From positions 1-33,459 of the forward strand of contig CANRCA010000005.1 of the NCBI GenBank assembly GCA_947628985.1: a DNA stretch of 33,459 nucleotides, read 5' to 3'. The translations under genes and the position numbers were made by a program. Within the stretch, counting starts at the first letter, position 1. The number at the start of each line of letters is the position of its first letter. Origin of the DNA: an uncultured Bacilli bacterium. Its GTDB lineage: Bacteria > Bacillota_I > Bacilli_A > RF39 > UBA660. The notes beneath the pieces were generated by a model that was given only the letters and a program-made list of their open reading frames with translations, ran no database searches and was not told where the DNA came from. Of this stretch, positions 11,318 through 33,276 are shown in pieces.

Positions 11318-12823
11318 ATGAATTTAAATATAATAGAGTTAATGAATTATGATTTTGGTAAATTTATAAAATTAGTAGAATTAGGAATTATTGATGAAGA
11401 AAAAGCTTGTAAGTCTGTTATTCAAAGTAATACTCCTGTCTATATTTATGAGTTTGCAAGAAGTATAAAATCTTCAAATATAGAAAAACTAGAAGATGCG
11501 ATAATTCAAACTAAAAGTGTAGAATTTATTTTTGAATTTGCTAAAAATATTAAAAGATCAAATAAGGAAAAATTAGAAGATGCGATAATTCAATTAGAAA
11601 ATATAAAATATATTTATTGGTTTGCTTATGGTATAAAAGGCGTTAATGTAGAAAAACTAGAAAATGCAATTATTCAATCTGAAAATGCAGAGTATATTTA
11701 TAAATTTGCAAGTGATGAATTTATAAAAGTTAAAAATATAGAAAAATTAGAAGAAGCAATTATTAAAACAAAAGATGCAAAATATATTTATGAGTTTGCA
11801 AGTGATGTAGAAAATTCAAATAAAGAAAAGTTAGAGGATATAATAATTCAATTAGGAAATACAAAGTATATTTATTGGTTTGCTTATGGTGTAAAAGGTG
11901 TTAATGTAGAAAAACTAGAAAATGCAATTATTCAATCTGGAAATGCAGAATATATTTATAAATTTGCAAGTGATATAAAAAATTCAAATAAAGAAAAGTT
12001 AGAAAAAGCAATAATTCAAACAGGAAATGCAGAGTATATTTATAAATTTGCAAGAGATATAGAAAATGTAAATATAAAAGAATTAGAAGATGCAATAATT
12101 CAAAGTGGAGATGCAGAATATATTTATGCTTTTGCTAAGTTTATAAAAGAAACTAACATAAAAGAACTAGAAAAAGCGATAATCCAAACAGGAGATGCAG
12201 AATATATTTATAATTTTGCAAATTTTCTAAGAAATGAAAGATATATAAAAGTATCAGAAATAGAAAAATTAGAAGAAGCTATAATTAAAAGTAAAAATGC
12301 AGAATATATTTATTATTTTGCAAGAGATATAGTAGGGGATAATATAGAGGAATTAGAAGATGCATTAATTTGCACTAAAGATGCTAGATATATTCAATTA
12401 TTTGCTCTTAATATAGATGGTGCAAATATAGAAAAACTAGAAAATGCAATTATTCAAACTGGGGATCTTTTTTATATTGATTCTTTTGCTTCTATTATAA
12501 AAGGGTCAAATATAGAAAAATTAGAAGACACAATAATTAAAAGTGGAAATGCAAAATATATTTATAATTTTGCAAAATATATAAAAGGTGCTAATATTAA
12601 AAAATTAAAAGCTGCAATCAATAAAACTAAAAATGATGAATTTATACTTCTTTTTGATGAAGAATTAAAAAGAATAAATAAGGAAAATTTATCAAATTTA
12701 ATGATGCTTTTAGAAAATAAACAATATCGAGAAATATTAGAAAATAGTGAAATATATTCACAATTATTTAATGATGATACAGAAGAAGAAAAACATTCAG
12801 AAAAAATTTTAAAAATCAAATAA
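11318..12823 (+). CDS. Alpha-solenoid-like protein of fourteen 28-residue repeats
   Basis: A 501-residue protein, not recognised by name. After an N-terminal cap (1-53) it consists of 14 units (54-453) with the pattern N(I/V/K)EKLEDAIIQ, then TGNAEYIYKFA, then a short linker. Each unit can form two short helices, so a curved solenoid for binding a protein or peptide is the likely shape. Ten units or more keep EYIY.FA-type cores. Unit 3 carries two extra residues and unit 9 six. Residues 454-501 form a diverged, charged tail. No signal peptide or membrane helix. Good site AAAGGAGAG before the ATG. It lies next to a Fic gene but has its own promoter. Confidence 0.8.
   Translation: MNLNIIELMNYDFGKFIKLVELGIIDEEKACKSVIQSNTPVYIYEFARSIKSSNIEKLEDAIIQTKSVEFIFEFAKNIKRSNKEKLEDAIIQLENIKYIYWFAYGIKGVNVEKLENAIIQSENAEYIYKFASDEFIKVKNIEKLEEAIIKTKDAKYIYEFASDVENSNKEKLEDIIIQLGNTKYIYWFAYGVKGVNVEKLENAIIQSGNAEYIYKFASDIKNSNKEKLEKAIIQTGNAEYIYKFARDIENVNIKELEDAIIQSGDAEYIYAFAKFIKETNIKELEKAIIQTGDAEYIYNFANFLRNERYIKVSEIEKLEEAIIKSKNAEYIYYFARDIVGDNIEELEDALICTKDARYIQLFALNIDGANIEKLENAIIQTGDLFYIDSFASIIKGSNIEKLEDTIIKSGNAKYIYNFAKYIKGANIKKLKAAINKTKNDEFILLFDEELKRINKENLSNLMMLLENKQYREILENSEIYSQLFNDDTEEEKHSEKILKIK
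11477..12676 (+). repeat. Fourteen tandem 84-base coding repeats
   Basis: The units begin at residues 54, 82, 110, 140, 168, 196, 224, 252, 280, 314, 342, 370, 398 and 426 of the protein. Units 2-3 and 5-6 are nearly identical (both contain YIYWFAYG.KGVNVEKLENAI), and units 1 and 4 are alike, so a block of three units was duplicated recently. The DNA around 11610-11710 and 11870-11970 shows the same near-identity. Confidence 0.85.
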
Positions 12824-23948: not shown

Positions 23949-23981
23949 TTAAATATAAGATAGAGAAAGGAAGGTATGAAA

Positions 23982-24437
23982 ATGAAAAGTAAGAAAGGTT
24001 TTACATTAGTAGAATTATTAGCAGTAATCGCTATTTTAGCAATTTTAGTAATTATAGCATTACCAAATATTTTAAATCTATATAGAAATGCAAGAAAGAA
24101 TGTATTTGTAGAAGAAGCACAAAATGTTCTTAGAACAGCTCAACAAAAATATTTAGAAGATTCATTAACAGCAACTACATCTACACCTTGTTATTCAACA
24201 CTTGAATCAGGAACACCATTAGATTTAGATGCTAAATCATCATTGAAATATGCTGTACAATTTGGTGCAGATGGAAATGTATCTGCTGTACATGTAAGTG
24301 ATGATAATTATTCTATTAAAATTACAACTGGACCAGTTAAAATTGAAAGCTTAACATCATCTGGTGTTCAAACTAAAGGAAATTCAGCAGAAAAATATAC
24401 TGCAGTAAGTGCTTGCCCTCCAGTAGCAGATGAATAA
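23982..24437 (+). CDS. Type IV pilin-like protein, copy 1
   Basis: Class III-signal pilin or pseudopilin, 151 residues. Leader MKSKKG is cut before Phe by a prepilin peptidase, then FTLVELLAVIAILAILVIIA forms the assembly helix, with Glu5 of the mature protein present. The head has TPCYST, LDLDAKSSLKYAVQF and a final SACPP; the two Cys could close a disulfide loop. Start: the ATG at 23976 is in frame, but copy 2 shows that the second ATG (here 23982) is the shared one. No pilus motor, platform or peptidase gene is in the window. Confidence 0.88.
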   Translation: MKSKKGFTLVELLAVIAILAILVIIALPNILNLYRNARKNVFVEEAQNVLRTAQQKYLEDSLTATTSTPCYSTLESGTPLDLDAKSSLKYAVQFGADGNVSAVHVSDDNYSIKITTGPVKIESLTSSGVQTKGNSAEKYTAVSACPPVADE

Positions 24438-24463
24438 TTAAAAATACAATAAAACAATAATTT

Positions 24464-24503
24464 AAAAGACTATTCAAAATAACGATGTGAATAGTCTTTT
24501 ATA
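24464..24503 (+). terminator. Terminator of pilin gene 1
   Basis: Perfect 12-base stem AAAAGACTATTC (24464-24475) / GAATAGTCTTTT (24489-24500). The same stem recurs after pilin 3. Confidence 0.75.
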
Positions 24504-24551
24504 ATGCAAAGTAAAAAAATAAAATTATAATGTAAAGTAAAAAAAATAAAA

Positions 24552-24580
24552 TTGACATTTTGAATATATATATATATAAT
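24552..24580 (+). promoter_or_regulatory. Promoter of pilin gene 2
   Basis: TTGACA (24552-24557) and TATAAT (24575-24580), spacer 17. (TA)7 at 24565-24578 runs through the spacer into the -10 box. Confidence 0.88.
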
Positions 24581-24614
24581 TTAAATATAAGATAGAGAAA
24601 GGAAGGTATGAAAT

Positions 24615-25073
24615 ATGAAAAATAAGAAAGGTTTTACATTAGTAGAATTATTAGCAGTAATCGCTATTTTAGCAATTTTAGTAATTATAGCATTACCTAA
24701 TATTTTAAACTTATATAGAAATGCAAGAGAAAATGTATTTGTAGAGGAAGCACAAAATGTACTTAGAACAGCACAACAAAAATATTTAGAAGATTCTATG
24801 AATAATACTGCTGTAGAATGCTATTCAACTGATGAAGGACATCAATTAGACCTAGATGCTAAATCATCATTACATTACTATGTTCAAATATCAGGTGGAA
24901 AAATTGTTAAATTACAAGTTGAAGATGGAAATTATCAACTAGTAGCAGATGGAAGCAGTACTGGAGCAGAAATAAAATTAGATCAATTAGGTAATAAATC
25001 TTCTAACAAAACATATAAATCTGCTGCTTATGCTAATTTAACTGTTACTAAATGTCCAACACCTGGTGCTTAA
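24615..25073 (+). CDS. Type IV pilin-like protein, copy 2
   Basis: 152 residues, leader MKNKKG, and an N-terminal helix nearly identical to copy 1 (one visible change, NARENVF for NARKNVF). The head differs: VECYSTDEG, LDLDAKSSLHYYVQIS and a final TKCPTPGA, keeping both Cys and the LDLDAKS motif. The ATG at 24608 is out of frame and meets a stop within six codons, so translation starts at 24615. It has its own promoter and terminator. Confidence 0.88.
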   Translation: MKNKKGFTLVELLAVIAILAILVIIALPNILNLYRNARENVFVEEAQNVLRTAQQKYLEDSMNNTAVECYSTDEGHQLDLDAKSSLHYYVQISGGKIVKLQVEDGNYQLVADGSSTGAEIKLDQLGNKSSNKTYKSAAYANLTVTKCPTPGA

Positions 25074-25090
25074 TTATTATGTCAATGATT

Positions 25091-25115
25091 AAACTGCTTA
25101 AGTGAGCAGTTTTTT
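25091..25115 (+). terminator. Terminator of pilin gene 2
   Basis: Stem AAACTGCT (25091-25098) / AGCAGTTT (25105-25112), loop TAAGTG, then a T run. Different from the terminators of copies 1 and 3. Confidence 0.8.
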
Positions 25116-25129
25116 AATGTAAAGTTATA

Positions 25130-25160
25130 TTGACATTTCGAATATATATATATATATAAT
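25130..25160 (+). promoter_or_regulatory. Promoter of pilin gene 3, with a longer TA spacer
   Basis: TTGACA (25130-25135) and TATAAT (25155-25160), spacer 19 because the repeat is (TA)8 at 25143-25158. One unit more than copy 2, and less favourable for RNA polymerase than 17. Confidence 0.8.
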
Positions 25161-25193
25161 CTAAGTATAAGGTAGAGAAAGGAAGGTATGAAA

Positions 25194-25643
25194 ATGAAAA
25201 GTAAGAAAGGATTTACATTAGTAGAATTATTAGCAGTAATCGCTATTTTAGCAATCTTAGTAATAATAGCATTACCAAATATTCTAAATCTATATAGAAA
25301 TGCAAGAAAGAATGTATTTGTAGAAGAAGCACAAAATGTACTTAGAACAGCACAACAACAATATTTACAAGATTCATTAACTTCAACTACATCTAATCCT
25401 TGTTATTCAAATACTGTTAGTGGTAAAACTGCGCTAGATTTAGATGCTAAATCAACATTAAAATATGCTGTACAATTTGCAGTAGATGGAACTGTAGATG
25501 CTATACATGTAAGTGATAGTAATTATTCTATTAAACTAACAACAGGTTCAATTAAAATTGAAGACTTAAAATCAGATGGCATTGCTGAAACTCTTGAAGC
25601 AGTATCAGCAACAGCATGTCCTACAAAATCAGACGGTGATTAA
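25194..25643 (+). CDS. Type IV pilin-like protein, copy 3
   Basis: 149 residues from the ATG at 25194 (an in-frame ATG lies at 25188). The leader MKSKKG and the helix are identical to copy 1; the head is closest to copy 1 (NPCYSN, LDLDAKSTLKYAVQF, final ATACPTK). It is the last pilin before the sequence changes character at about 25735. Confidence 0.88.
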   Translation: MKSKKGFTLVELLAVIAILAILVIIALPNILNLYRNARKNVFVEEAQNVLRTAQQQYLQDSLTSTTSNPCYSNTVSGKTALDLDAKSTLKYAVQFAVDGTVDAIHVSDSNYSIKLTTGSIKIEDLKSDGIAETLEAVSATACPTKSDGD

Positions 25644-26115: not shown

Positions 26116-27402
26116 ATGAATTTAAACTATGCAATATTTAGAAGCGAACCAATAATGACTATAAATGATTTAGCACAAATTGGATCACACAATAAAAGAG
26201 AAAAAAAGGCTTATAATTCAAATCCAGATATAAATATTGAAAAAAGTAAAGATAATATAGAACTTGTCCCTTTAGCTGATAAATATGTTAAGGGGTTTTA
26301 TAATATTGTAAAAGATTATAGAAAAGAACACGAAGAAAGAATGAAAACAGAGCGAGTTGATAGAAAAAAGACTTTTAAACAAATGTTAGATAAATCAAAT
26401 AATGTTGTTGCTGATGAATTATTATTTACTGCTACAAATGAGTTTTTTAAAGACATGACTAGAGATGATATTAAAGAATGGGCTAATACTTGTATGGAGT
26501 TTGTTTATAATGATTTAGGATATACCAAAGAACAAGTTTTACACGCAACAGTTCATTTAGATGAAAAAACACCACATATTCATTGTGTTGTTGTTCCACT
26601 TATTAAAAAGTTTGATAAACGAACTAATACTGTAAGATATACTATTTCTAAAAAACAATATATCAAAGATAAAGTTCATTTATCTGAATTACAAGATAAA
26701 TACCACGAAAGACTTACTTCTAAAGGTTATGATTTAGAAAGAGGCATTAAAGGTAGTGATAGAGAACATATAAAAATTAAAGATTATAAAAAGATTAATA
26801 GAAAACTAGAACAAAATCTAAATACTAGAAATGATAGATTAGATAAAGTTATGAATGAATTTGAAGAAAAAATGAAAACTACTAAAACAATTCCTTTTGA
26901 TAAGAAACATATTATTGTAGAAAAAGATACTTTTGATACAATGAACAAAGTTATTAAAGAGTCTAAAAAAATTATGGAATTACAACCTAAAATAAACCAA
27001 GTATTTAATGAAGTAGATAGTTATGTTAGTAGTTATAATTTACTAGAAAAAGATAATCAAAAATATCAAAGAGAAATCAAATCATTAAAAACTAGAAATG
27101 GTAATCTTCTACAGGAAAATAACAAATTAAAATCTTATATAAGTACTATTTTAGATGTCATAAAGAAGTTTTTTAGAAAACTATTACAAATTGGAAATGA
27201 ACCCGCAAAAGAAGCTACCACGAGCGAAATAAAAGAGTATTATGATGATAAAAATTTTGATTCTAATGATGTCTATGATATTTCAAAAGGTACTACTAAA
27301 GAAAATGAATTATTTGATTATGCAGGAATACCTAGTTATTTAAAAACTAGCAGAAATTCTTATGCTGAGAACGAAAAGGATGATTATGAGATAAGTATAT
27401 AG
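26116..27402 (+). CDS. mob: MOBV-family relaxase (Mob/Pre)
   Basis: Nicks the origin of transfer and leads DNA into a recipient; the mark of mobilizable plasmids and integrated elements. 428 residues. N-terminus NYAIFRSEPI, then GSHNKREKKAYNSNPDI, and the metal-binding motif HLDEKTPHIHCVVVPL (H-x-D-E-x-T-P-H-x-H) are the family landmarks. A long coiled coil follows (about 230-350; LLEKDNQKYQREIKSLK and further), and the tail is acidic. Site GTGAGG before the ATG. Neither a replication protein nor an integrase is in the window, so whether the element is an integrated mobilizable element or a captured plasmid is open. Confidence 0.92.
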   Translation: MNLNYAIFRSEPIMTINDLAQIGSHNKREKKAYNSNPDINIEKSKDNIELVPLADKYVKGFYNIVKDYRKEHEERMKTERVDRKKTFKQMLDKSNNVVADELLFTATNEFFKDMTRDDIKEWANTCMEFVYNDLGYTKEQVLHATVHLDEKTPHIHCVVVPLIKKFDKRTNTVRYTISKKQYIKDKVHLSELQDKYHERLTSKGYDLERGIKGSDREHIKIKDYKKINRKLEQNLNTRNDRLDKVMNEFEEKMKTTKTIPFDKKHIIVEKDTFDTMNKVIKESKKIMELQPKINQVFNEVDSYVSSYNLLEKDNQKYQREIKSLKTRNGNLLQENNKLKSYISTILDVIKKFFRKLLQIGNEPAKEATTSEIKEYYDDKNFDSNDVYDISKGTTKENELFDYAGIPSYLKTSRNSYAENEKDDYEISI

Positions 27403-27477: not shown

Positions 27478-28821
27478 TTGAATATATTAGTAATTAATCC
27501 ACCAAACAAACCATTTACAAACGAGTCAATACTTGCTGAACCAATTGATGTTTTACAAGTTGCAACAATAATTAAACAAAAGTATGAAAATGTTATGGTT
27601 ATTGATATGGATGTTAATAGAATGGAAAATAATATAAATGATTATTTAAAGGATGATAATATTATTGTTTTTGTATATGATTATCAGTTACCATTACATA
27701 CCAGTGATACTGTTGCTAATATGTTTGAAATTATTAACAATACTAATAAAAAATCAAAATTTATTATTATTGGTAAAACATCTTCATATTATTATGAAAA
27801 ATTCCTTAATAATGGTTTTGATGTAGTTATAAATGGAATAGTAGATGATTCAATTATTAAAGTAATTGACGGTTTTGTTAATGAGAAAGATCTGTCTATA
27901 ATTCCAAATATTGAAATAAAAAAAGAAAATGAAATTATAATTACAGAAAAGACCAAAATTGATAATAAATTTGATTTGTTGAAATATCCAGATCGTAGTT
28001 TTATAGATTTGGATAAGTATATGGATACCAGAACTATGATTACTTCAAGAGGATGTATAGGAAAATGTAGTTTTTGTACTACTCCAACTTTTTTTGGAAA
28101 TTGGAATGGTAAAAATTCAAAGCAAGTTGTTGATGAAATAGAGTATTTAATAAATAACTTTAATACTAAAAAAATCATGTTTTTAGACGACAATATGACA
28201 GTAAATAAAAAAAGAATGTATGAAATTTGTAATGAAATTGAAAATAGAAAAATTAAATGCTTATTTGGTTGCTTAAGTAGTATAATTTGTTATGATAAAG
28301 AAATGTTTATCAAAATGTATTCAGTCGGATTTAGATGGATTCATTTTGGGATTGAGTCTGGAAGCCCAAAAATTTTAAATCTTATGAATAAACCCATGGA
28401 CATAAAAAATATTAAACAAATTATAAAAGAAGTAAAAATAATTGGATATAGAGTAAGAACTAGTTTTATATTAGATTATCCAGGCTCAACAAAAGAAGAT
28501 ATTATAGCTACAAGGAATTTAATTAACGAATTAGAACCACATGAATTAAGATTACACTATTTAGCATATAGAGTTGGAACACCAGTTTTTGAAAATAATA
28601 AAAATATAAAAAATAAAACTCAATATATTCATAGTAATCATCCAAATATTGAAAATGATGAATTAACTGAAGAAATTAATTTATTAATAGATGATTTAGC
28701 AAAAAAAGGTTATAAATTAGTATTTGATGATGTTAATTGGAATAAATATAATTTATTAGATAAAAATACAAAATTTGCATCATTTATTCCAATAAAATAT
28801 GGGATGTGTTGGTATGAATAG
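27478..28821 (+). CDS. Radical SAM enzyme with N-terminal B12-binding-like domain
   Basis: 447 residues. Residues 1-140 have the alternating Rossmann pattern of B12-binding domains of the class B radical SAM group (NILVINPPNKPF; VIDMDVNRME; FDVVINGIVDDSI); a DxHxxG motif is not visible, as is usual in this group. The radical SAM core has RGCIGKCSFC (Cys193, 197, 200), then IMFLDDNMTVNK and WIHFGIESGSPKIL. Such enzymes often methylate unreactive carbons. Start: GTG 27469 is part of the site AAAGAGGTG, so TTG 27478 is chosen (MNILVINPP). It ends eight bases inside the next gene. First gene of the modification cluster. Confidence 0.88.
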   Translation: MNILVINPPNKPFTNESILAEPIDVLQVATIIKQKYENVMVIDMDVNRMENNINDYLKDDNIIVFVYDYQLPLHTSDTVANMFEIINNTNKKSKFIIIGKTSSYYYEKFLNNGFDVVINGIVDDSIIKVIDGFVNEKDLSIIPNIEIKKENEIIITEKTKIDNKFDLLKYPDRSFIDLDKYMDTRTMITSRGCIGKCSFCTTPTFFGNWNGKNSKQVVDEIEYLINNFNTKKIMFLDDNMTVNKKRMYEICNEIENRKIKCLFGCLSSIICYDKEMFIKMYSVGFRWIHFGIESGSPKILNLMNKPMDIKNIKQIIKEVKIIGYRVRTSFILDYPGSTKEDIIATRNLINELEPHELRLHYLAYRVGTPVFENNKNIKNKTQYIHSNHPNIENDELTEEINLLIDDLAKKGYKLVFDDVNWNKYNLLDKNTKFASFIPIKYGMCWYE

Positions 28822-30262
28822 ACTTATAGGAATTACTGGTGAAATGTCATCAGGTAAAACAACATTAGCAAAGAAATTAATTAAACTTAATCCAAATTTT
28901 ATCTACATTGATGTTGATGAATTTAGAAGGAGCTTATATGATAACTCAAGTTATATAAATGAACTGAAATTAAGTATAAATGAGTTAAAACAATATGAAA
29001 AAATAGATTCATTAATTCTTAATCAATATATCTATAATGATAATAAAAAGATGGAGCAATATAAAAAAATTTTATATAAATATCTATTTGAATATATAAA
29101 ATCTTTTTCAAATAAAACCATTGTTATTGATTGGGCTTTAATTGTTAATGATGGTTTAATAGATAAATTTGATAAAATTATTTATTTAAATATTTCTGAA
29201 GATATAAGATTATCAAGATTAAAAAATAGTGATTTAACTAAAAGAGAAATTTTAAGAAGATTTGAATTACAAAAAATAAATAATATTAATGATTATGAAT
29301 CTGAAAACTTTATGATAGTAGGTGAAAATATGAATATTGATAAAATTAATGATTTTATAAATTCTATGGAGTGTAAATTTACTCTACCAGAAGATGGAGG
29401 AAAAGTTATATGGGAAATCACTCATAATTGTAATTATGGATGTTCATATTGTATTTTTTCTTGTGATAAAAAACGAGTTGATGATGAATTAACTACTCAA
29501 GAATGTTTTCATGTAATAGATGAATTGGTTAATAATGGTTTTAAATATTTAAAAATAACAGGTGGAGAACCATTTATTAGAAAAGATATAATTGAAATAT
29601 TAGCATATGCTAGTAAAAATTTAATTGTTGATATTTCTACTAATGCATCATTGATAACAGATGAAATTGTATCAAAATTAAATGAAATAAATTTAAAAAT
29701 GATTCATGTTAGTTTAGATGGCAATAAGGAAGAACATGAATCTGTTAGAGGAAAACTAACTTATGATAGAACAATTAGGGGATTAAATGCACTAAGAAAA
29801 TCTAAAAATAAAGTAAGGATTGGATCTGTAATCCATGCTAATAATGAAAATAACTTAGAAAATTTAATAAAGGATTCAATTAATCTTAATACTAATGAAA
29901 TTATATTTTCAATAATGGAACCAGTAGATGGCCAAAGTAAATCACTTGTAAAAACTATTTCCAATGATGCATTGATTAAAAATATTGATAAATTAAAAGT
30001 AAAATATCAAGATAATATAATTGTAAATTATAATTTTGGTAAACAGCCAATCTTTGTTAAAAAATGCCCTGCAGGTGATAAATTCTTATATATAAATAAT
30101 ATGGGATTTGTTAGTCCATGCCCATGGGTATATGAAAATAACAAAAATTGTATTTCTAAAAAATCATTGAGAGATAACGAATTAAAAGAAGTTTTGAAAG
30201 ATAACAATATTTCATTGTTTTTATCAGAAAAGTTTAAAGGTGTATGTTATGGAAAAATTTAA
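28814..30262 (+). CDS. CoaE-like kinase fused to a SPASM-type radical SAM enzyme
   Basis: A two-part protein of about 482 residues. Residues 1-190: P-loop kinase, GITGEMSSGKTT (Walker A), YIDVDEFRRSLYD, and YLNISEDIRLSRL with REILRRFELQ, a layout like dephospho-CoA kinase. From about 195: radical SAM core with CNYGCSYC (Cys206, 210, 213), ITGGEP, and HVSLDGNKEEHESVRG. The C-terminal part has a Cys-rich twitch/SPASM-like region (KCPAGDKFLYI, SPCPWV, VCYGKI), typical of peptide-modifying enzymes. I know of no named family with this fusion. ATG at 28814; an in-frame ATG lies at 28799. It overlaps both neighbours. Confidence 0.85.
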   Translation: MNRLIGITGEMSSGKTTLAKKLIKLNPNFIYIDVDEFRRSLYDNSSYINELKLSINELKQYEKIDSLILNQYIYNDNKKMEQYKKILYKYLFEYIKSFSNKTIVIDWALIVNDGLIDKFDKIIYLNISEDIRLSRLKNSDLTKREILRRFELQKINNINDYESENFMIVGENMNIDKINDFINSMECKFTLPEDGGKVIWEITHNCNYGCSYCIFSCDKKRVDDELTTQECFHVIDELVNNGFKYLKITGGEPFIRKDIIEILAYASKNLIVDISTNASLITDEIVSKLNEINLKMIHVSLDGNKEEHESVRGKLTYDRTIRGLNALRKSKNKVRIGSVIHANNENNLENLIKDSINLNTNEIIFSIMEPVDGQSKSLVKTISNDALIKNIDKLKVKYQDNIIVNYNFGKQPIFVKKCPAGDKFLYINNMGFVSPCPWVYENNKNCISKKSLRDNELKEVLKDNNISLFLSEKFKGVCYGKI

Positions 30263-31079
30263 TAGTATCTATTCTTTCACAACAGAAAATATTGCAGGAT
30301 ACATGAGTAAACTAGATTTAACTGATAAAAAAATAATTACTGTTACTGGATCATCAGATCATATAATTAATGCTATTTTAAGAGGTTGCTTAGATATAAC
30401 AACATTTGATATAAATCCACTTACAAAATATTATATGGATTTAAAATTATCTGCAATAAAAGAATTATCATATAATGAATTTTTAGATTTTTTGCTATAT
30501 AATACAGAAAAATCATTTTCTTATGAAATAATTATTAAGTTAAATATGGAAGATGAGAGCAAAATGTTTTGGTTAAAGGAATTAGTAAATAATGATAATG
30601 ATGGTTTGAAAATGAAACATTCCAATTTGTTTAATTTAAAATATTTTGATGCTCAAAATAAAATTGATTGTAATTTATATCTGAAACAAGAAAATTATGA
30701 TATAATTAAAGATAGATTGGAACTTGTAAAAATAAATTTTATAGAATCCAATTTAAAAGATTTAGAAATTATTGAAAATTATGATTATATGTTTTTATCA
30801 AATATATCTGATTATATTAATACTTTTTATGAAGATAATTATTTGATTAACTATAAAAATTTAATTTTTAGGTTTTTAAAAAATGTAAAAAATATATATT
30901 TTGCTTATGTATATGATATTGATAACAAAATTAAAAGAAGTGTTATTGATGACTTGAAAAATGTTCAAGAAGTTTTTGGAAATATTAAAATTCAAAAATT
31001 TAAAAGTGCATTGCTTAATCAAAACAAAGATACCGAGGATGCAGTATTTATAAAGGAGGAAAATAAAAATGGAAAGTAG
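30249..31079 (+). CDS. SAM-binding Rossmann-like protein, possible aminocarboxypropyl transferase
   Basis: 276 residues. The start SIYSFTTENIAGYM, then IITVTGSSDHIINAIL and CLDITTFDINPLTKYYMDLK, reads as the glycine-loop and acidic second strand of a SAM-binding fold. The DINPLxKYYxxLK region resembles the DUF3419/BtaA group, which moves the 3-amino-3-carboxypropyl group of SAM rather than methyl. This is a pattern-level call; an ordinary methyltransferase is possible. Start: GTG 30240 overlaps the site AAAGG; ATG 30249 is preferred. It overlaps the previous gene and the next one by 11 bases. Confidence 0.6.
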   Translation: MEKFNSIYSFTTENIAGYMSKLDLTDKKIITVTGSSDHIINAILRGCLDITTFDINPLTKYYMDLKLSAIKELSYNEFLDFLLYNTEKSFSYEIIIKLNMEDESKMFWLKELVNNDNDGLKMKHSNLFNLKYFDAQNKIDCNLYLKQENYDIIKDRLELVKINFIESNLKDLEIIENYDYMFLSNISDYINTFYEDNYLINYKNLIFRFLKNVKNIYFAYVYDIDNKIKRSVIDDLKNVQEVFGNIKIQKFKSALLNQNKDTEDAVFIKEENKNGK

Positions 31080-31557
31080 AAGTAGTGAAAGTAGTTATGG
31101 ATTTGGTGGATATTCAGGGGGATATTCATCAGAAAGCAGTTATGCTAGTGAAAGTCGTAATAGTTATAGACCATCATCATCATTTAGTAGCAAAAGTGCA
31201 TTAGAAAGTAGACCTTCAATCGTTTCAGCTGAAAGTCGAGCAACAAGTTTTAGTTCTGAAAGTAGAGGTATGGGTATTCAAACATCTATCACAAAACCAA
31301 AAACACAATATAATTCTTTAGATGATATTGATAAATTAATCGAAAGATTAGAAGCATCTTTTGGAACTACACAAGTTACTAGCGAAAGAGCTAATCAAAT
31401 TTTAGCCCAAAGAAAACAAAAAATTGAATCTTTAAAACAATTAGTTGCTGATGCTAGAAAAGCAGAAACTGAAGAAAGAATTATTCAACAACTAGAACAA
31501 GAAAATAGTGAACTTGATGATGCTATTGATAGTATGAATAAAGGATTTCATAGATAA
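31069..31557 (+). CDS. Ser/Tyr/Gly-rich repeat protein, probable substrate of the modification cluster
   Basis: 162 residues, no Cys. Residues 1-75 are low-complexity, Ser-, Tyr-, Gly- and Arg-rich, with seven Glu-Ser motifs: ESR at 2-4, 28-30, 46-48, 55-57, 64-66 and ESS at 7-9, 22-24. The last three ESR are exactly nine residues apart. Residues 82-162 form a helical, charged domain (DDIDKLIERLEASFG; RIIQQLEQENSELDDAID). It has the best ribosome binding site in the cluster, AAAGGAGG at 31052-31059, and lies between radical SAM genes and an ATP-grasp gene. I read it as a precursor or carrier protein whose N-terminal part is modified and whose helical end is recognised. A surface or scaffold protein is the alternative. 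Confidence 0.7.
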   Translation: MESRSSESSYGFGGYSGGYSSESSYASESRNSYRPSSSFSSKSALESRPSIVSAESRATSFSSESRGMGIQTSITKPKTQYNSLDDIDKLIERLEASFGTTQVTSERANQILAQRKQKIESLKQLVADARKAETEERIIQQLEQENSELDDAIDSMNKGFHR

Positions 31558-32597
31558 TGGAAAACATATATAAAGATTTACATTCTAATCAAAAAATTTT
31601 TATATATGAAATGCTTAAAAGAGGAATAAATGTTGAAATAATTGATGTTGAAAGAGAGATTATTAAATCATCATACAATGGACATGATGAATTAATATGT
31701 GATAGAGATTCTTCTATAATGCCTTATAATGTTTCAATATTAGCTGGTGATAAAGGATTTACAAAAAAGAATTTGATGATGAATGGAATATCAGTTCCTA
31801 TTGGAGAAACTTTTTTAGCTAAAGATATTGATTATATTCTAAAGACATTTAGAGTATTGAATTGCCCTGTTGTAATTAAACCTGTATTTGGTTCGCATGG
31901 TTTTGATGTATATACTGATTTAAAAACAGAAAAAGACATTTCTAATGCGATTAAAAGTATTATTGAACATAGAGGAGATTTAACAAAAATAATTATTGAA
32001 GAATATTATCAAGCACAAGAATATAGAGTGTTTGTTACTAAAAATGGTGATTATGCAGTATTACTTCGTGATCCTGCTCACATTTATGGTGATGGTATTA
32101 ATACAATTGAATATTTAATTAAAAAAGAAAATTATGAAAGAATGAATCCTAGAACAAATGCTTTATGTGAAATATTAGTTGATGAAGAATTATTGAAATA
32201 TTTATCAAAAAAAGGATTATCTTTACAGAGTATTCCAGCAAATGGAGAAAAAGTTTATTTAAGACCAAATTCTAATGTTGCTATGGGTGGTATTTGTGAA
32301 GATTATACCGATAGAGTTCATCCAAGTGTTATAGAAATTGGTTTAAATGTTCTAAAGGCTTTTCCAGGATTGCCTTATGTTGGTATTGATTTTATGACAA
32401 ATTCAATAACAGAAATGCAAACTGATGATAGTTATAGAATTATTGAAATAAATACTGTTCCAGGTGTTCATATGCATTTTAGACCAGCAATTGGTAAATC
32501 TCAAAATATTGCAAAATATATAGTTGATATGATTTATCCTGAAACAATAGAAAACAAAGAGGAAGTATTAGATGAAAAACCTATTAAAAGACTCTAA
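31557..32597 (+). CDS. ATP-grasp ligase of cyanophycin-synthetase/GshF type
   Basis: 346 residues, a free-standing ATP-grasp. VVIKPVFGSHGFDVY is the ATP lysine and glycine loop; EYRVFVTKNGDYAVLLRDPA and YGDGINTIEYLI match the RVxVxxGxxxAxxxRxPAxxxGDG pattern of CphA and GshF; IEINTVPGVHMHF holds the metal-binding Glu and Asn. The Mur-ligase half of CphA and the GCL half of GshF are absent. These enzymes form amide bonds with an acyl-phosphate intermediate, so this one probably adds an amino acid to a carboxylate, such as a Glu of the neighbouring protein. Its start overlaps the previous stop by one base (TAATG). Confidence 0.85.
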   Translation: MENIYKDLHSNQKIFIYEMLKRGINVEIIDVEREIIKSSYNGHDELICDRDSSIMPYNVSILAGDKGFTKKNLMMNGISVPIGETFLAKDIDYILKTFRVLNCPVVIKPVFGSHGFDVYTDLKTEKDISNAIKSIIEHRGDLTKIIIEEYYQAQEYRVFVTKNGDYAVLLRDPAHIYGDGINTIEYLIKKENYERMNPRTNALCEILVDEELLKYLSKKGLSLQSIPANGEKVYLRPNSNVAMGGICEDYTDRVHPSVIEIGLNVLKAFPGLPYVGIDFMTNSITEMQTDDSYRIIEINTVPGVHMHFRPAIGKSQNIAKYIVDMIYPETIENKEEVLDEKPIKRL

Positions 32598-33276
32598 AGC
32601 ATATTATGAAAATAATGACTATTATGAGATTTTTAGTCAAGCCGAAGATTATGAAAGTAAAGTTGCTGAATATTTAAATAGCATTTCTAAAAATAAAGTG
32701 GTTTTAGATGCAGGTTGTGGGACAGGTAAATTTCTAAAAGTTTTAGAAAACAATGCCAAGGAATATATTGGTATTGATTTATCTAACGATCAATTATCAA
32801 AAGCAAAAATAAAATCAACTAATAAAAGATCGAAATTTATTTGCTCTAATTTATCAAAAATACCCCTAGATGATGGTTCAATCGATTTAATAATTTCTTC
32901 TTGGGTATTGGGTACAATAACTGATATTGAAGAAAGAAATAATGTTGTATGTGAACTTAAACGAATTTTAAAGTCAAATGGTATTATTATATTGGTTGAA
33001 AATTCTGAAAATAGTGAATTTGAAATAATTAGAGGTAGGGATAAAGACACTAGAACAAAAGAGTATAATGATTGGATTTTAGAAAATGATTTTATATTGG
33101 ATTGTAAGTTCAATACTTATTTTAAATTTAAATCATTAGAAGAAGCAAAAAAGTGTTTTGAAGTTATATATGGTAGCAAAATTGCTTCTAAAATAGCAAG
33201 TGACAAAATAGAACATAAAATTGACATATATAAATTTAATCAAATAAAAAGCAAAAATCCAAAAGAAACTTCGTAA
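32572..33276 (+). CDS. Class I SAM-dependent methyltransferase
   Basis: 234 residues. Motif I is VVLDAGCGTGKFLKVL, motif II YIGIDLSNDQLSKAK, and the DLIISSWVLGTI and LKRILKSNGIIILVE segments complete the fold. It belongs to the Methyltransf_11/25 type found in natural-product clusters. GAGGAAG about seven bases before the ATG; it overlaps the ATP-grasp gene by 26 bases. Last gene of the cluster. TTG Leu codons are used freely, unlike in the core genes. Confidence 0.87.
   Translation: MKNLLKDSKAYYENNDYYEIFSQAEDYESKVAEYLNSISKNKVVLDAGCGTGKFLKVLENNAKEYIGIDLSNDQLSKAKIKSTNKRSKFICSNLSKIPLDDGSIDLIISSWVLGTITDIEERNNVVCELKRILKSNGIIILVENSENSEFEIIRGRDKDTRTKEYNDWILENDFILDCKFNTYFKFKSLEEAKKCFEVIYGSKIASKIASDKIEHKIDIYKFNQIKSKNPKETS

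Follow-up and report, generated by a model that had tools for sequence, protein, structure and literature searches.

The DNA analysed here, referred to as the window, is a stretch of 33,459 nucleotides from an uncultured Bacilli bacterium (contig CANRCA010000005.1, assembly GCA_947628985.1). Seven genes on its plus strand encode, in order, a MobV relaxase (26116–27402), a B12-binding-type radical SAM enzyme (27478–28821; 447 residues from a TTG start, with an invariant CxxxCxxC), a CoaE-like P-loop kinase fused to a radical SAM/SPASM enzyme (28814–30262), a DUF3419 (BtaA-like) SAM-binding protein and putative 3-amino-3-carboxypropyl transferase (30249–31079), a protein of 162 residues rich in Glu-Ser motifs (the ES protein, 31069–31557), an ATP-grasp ligase of 346 residues (31557–32597) and a class I SAM methyltransferase (32572–33276). 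From 27478 onward successive genes of this cassette overlap. The relaxase (115.9 bits, cut-off 100), which lies directly upstream, 75 bases before the cassette, is taken as context only; it hints at a mobile element, and the regions flanking the other cassettes described below contain no relative. Elsewhere the window encodes three tandem prepilin-like proteins with almost identical N-termini (23976–25643) and a 501-residue protein with repeats of about 30 residues (AIIQTGNAEYIYxFAxxI; 11318–12823).

The enzymes of the cassette

A radical SAM domain was detected by Pfam in the B12-type enzyme, with no Pfam match to the B12-binding domain PF02310 in the window protein; among three archaeal homologues PF02310 scores above its cut-off in two and below it in the third. 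The NCBIfam B12-radical SAM models match the window enzyme below their cut-offs, as do the best NCBIfam matches overall, methyl-coenzyme M reductase Gln C-methyltransferase and PhpK. The kinase part matches Pfam CoaE (E=1.4e-9; 38.3 bits, cut-off 27) and an archaeal kinase matches TIGR00152 (69.2 bits, cut-off 65.55), profile matches that place the cassette kinase in the dephospho-CoA kinase family. In some cassettes one fused gene encodes both kinase and SPASM enzyme, in others (L063, L064, L065 and the three archaea) each has its own gene, suggesting that the two work together.

The DUF3419 protein matches its Pfam family with E=5e-13 (49.4 bits, cut-off 28.2), best over residues 3–112, and its archaeal homologues score 38–56 bits (E=6e-15 in one archaeon). 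No related solved structure was found by sequence. In the AlphaFold2 model (pLDDT 93) the fold is of the class I methyltransferase type; spermine synthase is the best structural match (Z 13.4, rmsd 3.8 over 167 residues), followed by methyltransferases at Z of about 12.3 and below. These fold matches of a predicted structure would fit methyl or aminocarboxypropyl transfer alike. Of 288 genomes examined from the order, 130 have DUF3419-like genes, mostly without the cassette, and such genes can be numerous: 19 ORFs form a tandem array in one 20-kb stretch (L050, G205:C7:37000-56900), and 18, some of them fragments, lie within 17 kb at L051 (G037:C25:93000-110000).

The ligase resembles the ATP-grasp part of cyanophycin synthetase (E=2e-68; 231 bits against a TIGR02068 cut-off of 850) and of GshF (GshAB, E=7e-55; 187 bits against 425). 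Solved cyanophycin synthases match from 7.5e-52, and the NCBIfam names matched are cyanophycin synthetase, GshF and RimK-type ligases. With scores far under the family cut-offs and a length of only 346 residues, we rejected a full cyanophycin synthetase or GshF.

The ES protein of the window

A sequence-only reading of this DNA had proposed the ES protein as a putative precursor or carrier, with seven ES(R/S) motifs, many Tyr and Phe between them and a helical C-terminus, and each of these features is borne out. The motifs start at residues 2, 7, 22, 28, 46, 55 and 64 (five ESR, two ESS), all seven Glu of residues 1–68 are followed by Ser, and the same residues include five Tyr and three Phe. 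Shuffling does not reproduce the number: none of 100,000 shuffles of residues 1–68 held five ESR or seven ES(R/S), and five ESR arose in 1 of 20,000 shuffles of the whole protein. The motif region (residues 1–74, 31069–31290), proposed to be the modified part, is predicted to be disordered, residues 1–75 being unstructured in the AlphaFold2 model (block pLDDT about 40–54). The remainder (residues 75–162, 31291–31554), proposed as the recognition element, comprises the stretch YNSLDDIDKLIExLE and a long helix, with predicted helices at 84–98 and 106–159 (block pLDDT 79–96 over residues 81–160).

Distribution of the cassette and linkage to the enzymes

Among 197 related genomes we found one other copy of the precursor, in the same genus and within a whole cassette in the same order; its helical part is 70% identical to that of the window over 93 residues, and its motif part has another length and spacing with SESR kept. 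A DUF3419 profile search led to five further cassettes, an ATP-grasp profile run on 386 genomes of the family gave nine genomes in all, and the B12-type enzyme, used to scan 84,980 species genomes, returned 17 loci, 12 with a readable precursor and one of them in a Candidatus Woesearchaeota MAG. A search around that genome, in its archaeal order, located the system in 3 of 241 genomes. Since a phylum-wide draw contained it in 1 of 392, namely the window itself, and added no locus, the system seems to be uncommon beyond the window's family (9/386) and the archaeal order (3/241). No homologue of the precursor was found in plasmids, phages or viral contigs, and none of the ATP-grasp in viral contigs; DUF3419 gave no match in viral or phage sequences and one fragment of 28% identity in plasmids. 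A link to defence was rejected, as PADLOC matches were generic (viperin-like radical SAM, methyltransferases).

Altogether, 17 distinct loci carry a readable ESR precursor: 14 in bacterial MAGs, the window included, and three in archaea. Excluded before counting were L056, L062 and L068, whose contigs end before the precursor, the collapsed remnant L069, and L070 (24% identity, no cassette); loci at the same place were counted once (L054/L005, L055/L038, L057/L037, L063/L039, L064/L081, L065/L080, L066/L036 and L067/L088). In the collapsed cassette (L069:10001-11252), residues 1–45 of the B12-type enzyme are joined in frame to the terminal portion of the ATP-grasp, the methyltransferase follows this fused remnant and all that normally separates the two joined enzymes is missing, through either decay or assembly collapse. 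Reading of the L059 precursor began at its first ATG, at the cost of a shortened N-terminus; the frame is open upstream of this ATG, behind a GAGGTG site (L059:13590-13670), and an ACG at the expected start is either a non-standard start or a sequence error.

Beside every ESR protein lie enzymes of the same set, comprising the B12-type radical SAM enzyme, the CoaE-like kinase, the radical SAM/SPASM enzyme, the DUF3419 protein, the ATP-grasp of the cyanophycin synthetase (CphA)/GshF kind and the methyltransferase. All six activities are encoded at 14 of the 17 loci, with the B12-type gene split into two ORFs at L036/L066; the cassettes of L047 and L082 are truncated at contig ends, and L061 is without the methyltransferase, which is therefore not always needed. 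The precursor gene sits between those for DUF3419 and ATP-grasp in all 14 bacterial loci and in L087, and upstream of the B12-type enzyme in L086 and L088. Within the family, a profile of the ES protein and the ATP-grasp select the same nine of 386 genomes, with the two genes side by side in each (ES profile at E≤6e-28 in eight genomes and 0.006 in G418, where the match lies inside the cassette). A further 23 genomes of the family match the ES profile only weakly (E 7e-6 to 0.01), and none of the seven loci with such a match that we inspected contains an ESR-rich ORF. A wide occurrence of homologues without the enzymes, which the sequence-only reading had named as grounds for abandoning a precursor, is thus not what the family presents.

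Two sets of neighbouring genes deserve mention in their own right. Near the ESR cassette of G002 is a second peptide-like cluster (L005:327-4903) with three radical SAM-type ORFs, a methyltransferase-like ORF and a 143-residue protein whose Cys-rich tail ends in GIPGGGGRC. The neighbourhoods L058:16027-19029, L059:15832-18759 and L060:3488-5079 share small proteins with spaced Cys (one to five copies, about 90–115 residues) and two ORFs that we read as Nudix-like.

Conservation of the ESR motif

A precursor was expected to keep its helical part and ES motifs while varying in repeat number, and comparison of the homologues agrees, the number of ESR ranging from 3 to 9 in the 17 precursors. In the motif regions of 15 precursors (L086 and L087 were left out of these statistics) 99 of 113 Glu have Ser next, Arg comes after 73 of these 99 ES, and the preceding residue is Ser in 51 and Gly in 32, together 83 of the 99; outside the motif regions the same 15 proteins contain four ES in total. 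Motif pairs 5 or 6 residues apart are frequent, the commonest ES–ES spacings being 6 (16 times), 5 (15) and 9 (9). The nine-residue period seen by the sequence-only reading is exact for Ser47, Ser56 and Ser65 of the window protein, but these counts reject it as a general rule.

The 17 precursors contain 90 ESR, counting one within the L060 helical part, and 20 different 9-mers are used to encode them; it is therefore a protein motif that is kept, not a recent DNA repeat. Per precursor, as many ESR as observed arise in 0 to 59 of 20,000 shuffles, and among the 878 distinct ORFs of at least 80 residues in the loaded loci, the 17 with at least three ESR are precisely the 17 precursors. The C-terminus is ESRW in nine precursors (eight bacterial and L086), ESRY in L088 and ESR in L087; the six whose motif block is N-terminal have no such ending. 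In L036 a motif-containing block of about 40 residues is doubled, showing a route by which repeat number can change.

Several properties of the window protein hold less widely. Its gene is preceded by the ribosome binding site AAAGGAGG (31043–31068, plus strand), whose 8-nt Shine-Dalgarno match is longer than those of the other operon genes (3–6 nt; six genes compared), the sequence-only reading having called it the strongest in the operon; in the 14 of 17 cassettes compared (L047, L059 and L082 left out), however, the match of the precursor is the longest in only seven, tied in four and shorter than another in three. Similarly, the window protein is free of Cys as described, but ten of the 17 precursors contain one to three Cys. 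With none in the other seven, Cys thioether chemistry was rejected as a general feature of ESR precursors, as was a sactipeptide or ranthipeptide, for which core Cys is required.

The order of the two parts, repeats first and helical recognition part last, had been singled out as inverted relative to usual ribosomally synthesised and post-translationally modified peptides (RiPPs). This is correct for the window but is just one of three layouts: six precursors have the motif block on the N-terminal side of the recognition part (the window, L005, L036, L038, L047 and L082), eight on its C-terminal side (L039, L059, L061, L064, L065 and the three archaea) and three at both ends (L037, L058 and L060). 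Placed on the ATP-grasp tree, the layout labels require four changes, the minimum possible being two. In the archaeal precursors the (G/S)ESR tail is attached to an N-terminal domain without any Pfam match, for which hhalign gives a probability of 0.1 against the bacterial helical part, the archaeal profile consisting of three rows. As judged by this alignment the domain is unrelated to the bacterial helical part, so the tail alone is common to bacterial and archaeal precursors.

Proposed role and chemistry

The homologue comparison and the linkage to the enzymes support the precursor or carrier interpretation, and we consider it very probable, from gene content and sequence, that the window ORF encodes a substrate for the six activities of the adjoining cassette. 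The precursors consist of two parts that change places, the first part of the archaeal ones being unrelated. Because the motif is kept, relocatable, also borne by an unrelated archaeal domain and linked to the enzymes, ESR is a conserved repeated element and most likely the site of modification, which we infer to be covalent. The helical part, or in archaea the unrelated N-terminal domain, would act as the recognition element and recruit the enzymes to the chain. Each (S/G)-Glu-Ser-Arg in the flexible tail would then be a modification site at which Ser, Glu or Arg is altered, giving many decorations per chain.

A BtaA-like protein encoded together with a methyltransferase and an amide-forming ligase suggests that Ser receives an aminocarboxypropyl group, and that methylation and amide formation take place as well. 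In betaine-lipid synthesis, as described in PMC10685587, BtaA uses SAM to form diacylglycerol-O-homoserine and BtaB adds three methyls. The cassette likewise pairs a DUF3419-type enzyme with a class I methyltransferase, but only the first ~110 residues of its protein match DUF3419, and the acceptor is diacylglycerol in BtaA as against the proposed peptide Ser. By analogy, the DUF3419 protein would transfer the SAM-derived 3-amino-3-carboxypropyl group to the Ser hydroxyl, as BtaA does on diacylglycerol, and the methyltransferase would methylate the transferred group, as in BtaB. The ATP-grasp may form an amide with either the new carboxylate or the side chain of Glu; it matches cyanophycin synthetase and GshF over most of its length, but differs from them in being a stand-alone ligase that lacks their partner domains and whose gene lies among those for a peptide and radical SAM enzymes. 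Kinase and SPASM enzyme may function as a pair, and the B12 enzyme may methylate an unactivated carbon, perhaps on Arg. This exact combination of aminocarboxypropyl-Ser, methylation, amide, kinase-SPASM pair and B12 C-methylation is tentative, and somewhat unlikely to be right in full.

Diphthamide on EF2 is made by aminocarboxypropyl transfer, methylation and then ATP-dependent amidation, and we infer that the ESR system may follow this logic, transferred to a repeat peptide. The likeness is an analogy in the proposed logic only, with no homologous enzymes claimed, and diphthamide occupies one His on EF2 as against many sites on the repeat peptide. In its fullest form the proposal would be that the Ser of (S/G)ESR is aminocarboxypropylated, methylated, amidated and altered by the kinase-radical SAM pair and the B12 enzyme, to give a polyvalent, diphthamide-like carrier that stays uncut in gut Bacillota and Woesearchaeota; this whole we regard as speculative and unlikely.

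What becomes of the decorated chain bears on a further reading, in which the ESR tail is never excised and the whole protein functions in the cell, its many identical amine and carboxylate side-chain groups serving, for example, as a metal or cofactor carrier. Clustering of the flanking genes of 16 loci revealed no recurrent protease or exporter beside the cassette, the recurrent flank families being host or island genes, and a lasting modified carrier is for that reason a possibility to be weighed. A motif so nearly identical from locus to locus is more readily explained as a lasting functional group than as a fast-changing antimicrobial core, and the release of a single core would be awkward with motifs before the helical part, behind it or both. 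On the other hand, housekeeping peptidases could free a product, a C39-peptidase ABC exporter adjoins one of the 17 cassettes (L066, 249 bases downstream), and the patchy distribution suits a specialised product. A lasting carrier seems to us possible rather than probable, and it and a cut-out precursor both stand.

The ATP-grasp in every cassette, together with one Glu and one Ser per motif, also recalls graspetides, which combine an ATP-grasp with a repeat peptide whose core offers Ser/Thr and Glu/Asp for linkage; here the ligase would link Glu to Ser side chains as esters or amides, forming rings within or between ESR repeats. According to PMC13003496, the leader position is movable in graspetide synthesis. 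The ESR cassette differs, however, in its cyanophycin synthetase/GshF kind of ATP-grasp and its near-invariant motif; none of 24 NCBIfam families matched (E up to 1) bears a graspetide-ligase name, and five other activities of nearly every cassette would be left without a role. In a term search of a graspetide survey (PMC8939145), 'cyanophycin', 'DUF3419', 'ESR' and 'B12' each occurred zero times. Crosslinking of this kind is, in our judgement, improbable.

We are equally doubtful that the ESR protein is a scaffold rather than a substrate, its motifs being short binding sites that gather enzymes making a small molecule. Repeated identical short motifs in a disordered tail describe scaffolds equally well, and the dephospho-CoA kinase family, represented in the cassette, is known for a small-molecule substrate. 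Yet one tripeptide ligand would have to serve six different enzymes, motif placement and carrier domain vary freely, and radical SAM/SPASM enzymes commonly modify ribosomal peptides. An ordinary low-complexity or coiled-coil protein with motifs arisen by chance or drift, for which a Ser-rich composition and the many, though weak, matches between the helical-part profile and unrelated coiled coils might speak, can be dismissed in the face of the shuffles, the codon variety, the strict enzyme linkage and the archaeal precursors, with ESR conserved across two domains of life.

Comparison with RiPPs and implications

As a probable gene-encoded substrate, the ESR protein resembles RiPPs modified by radical SAM/SPASM enzymes in being a short protein with a putative recognition part and variable repeats, with genes for radical SAM, B12-type radical SAM, ATP-grasp and methyltransferase enzymes as neighbours, and a precursor lies alongside candidate modifying enzymes at 17 distinct loci. 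It departs from them in a repeat motif without Cys, in a recognition part that follows, precedes or splits the repeats, and in a cassette that has DUF3419 and a CoaE-like kinase and no conserved protease or exporter. To our knowledge, this set of six enzymes beside a tripeptide-repeat protein is unlike any known RiPP class. We found no earlier description of the system in the open-access literature by title and start of abstract.

The ESR protein and its six enzymes, present in uncultured gut bacteria and archaea, point to an undescribed form of peptide decoration, and the archaeal copies show a distribution across domains of life. Since the motif is short, repeated and found on two unrelated proposed recognition domains, it lends itself directly to testing and is possibly portable. 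If the DUF3419 protein acts as proposed, aminocarboxypropyl chemistry would be extended to peptides.
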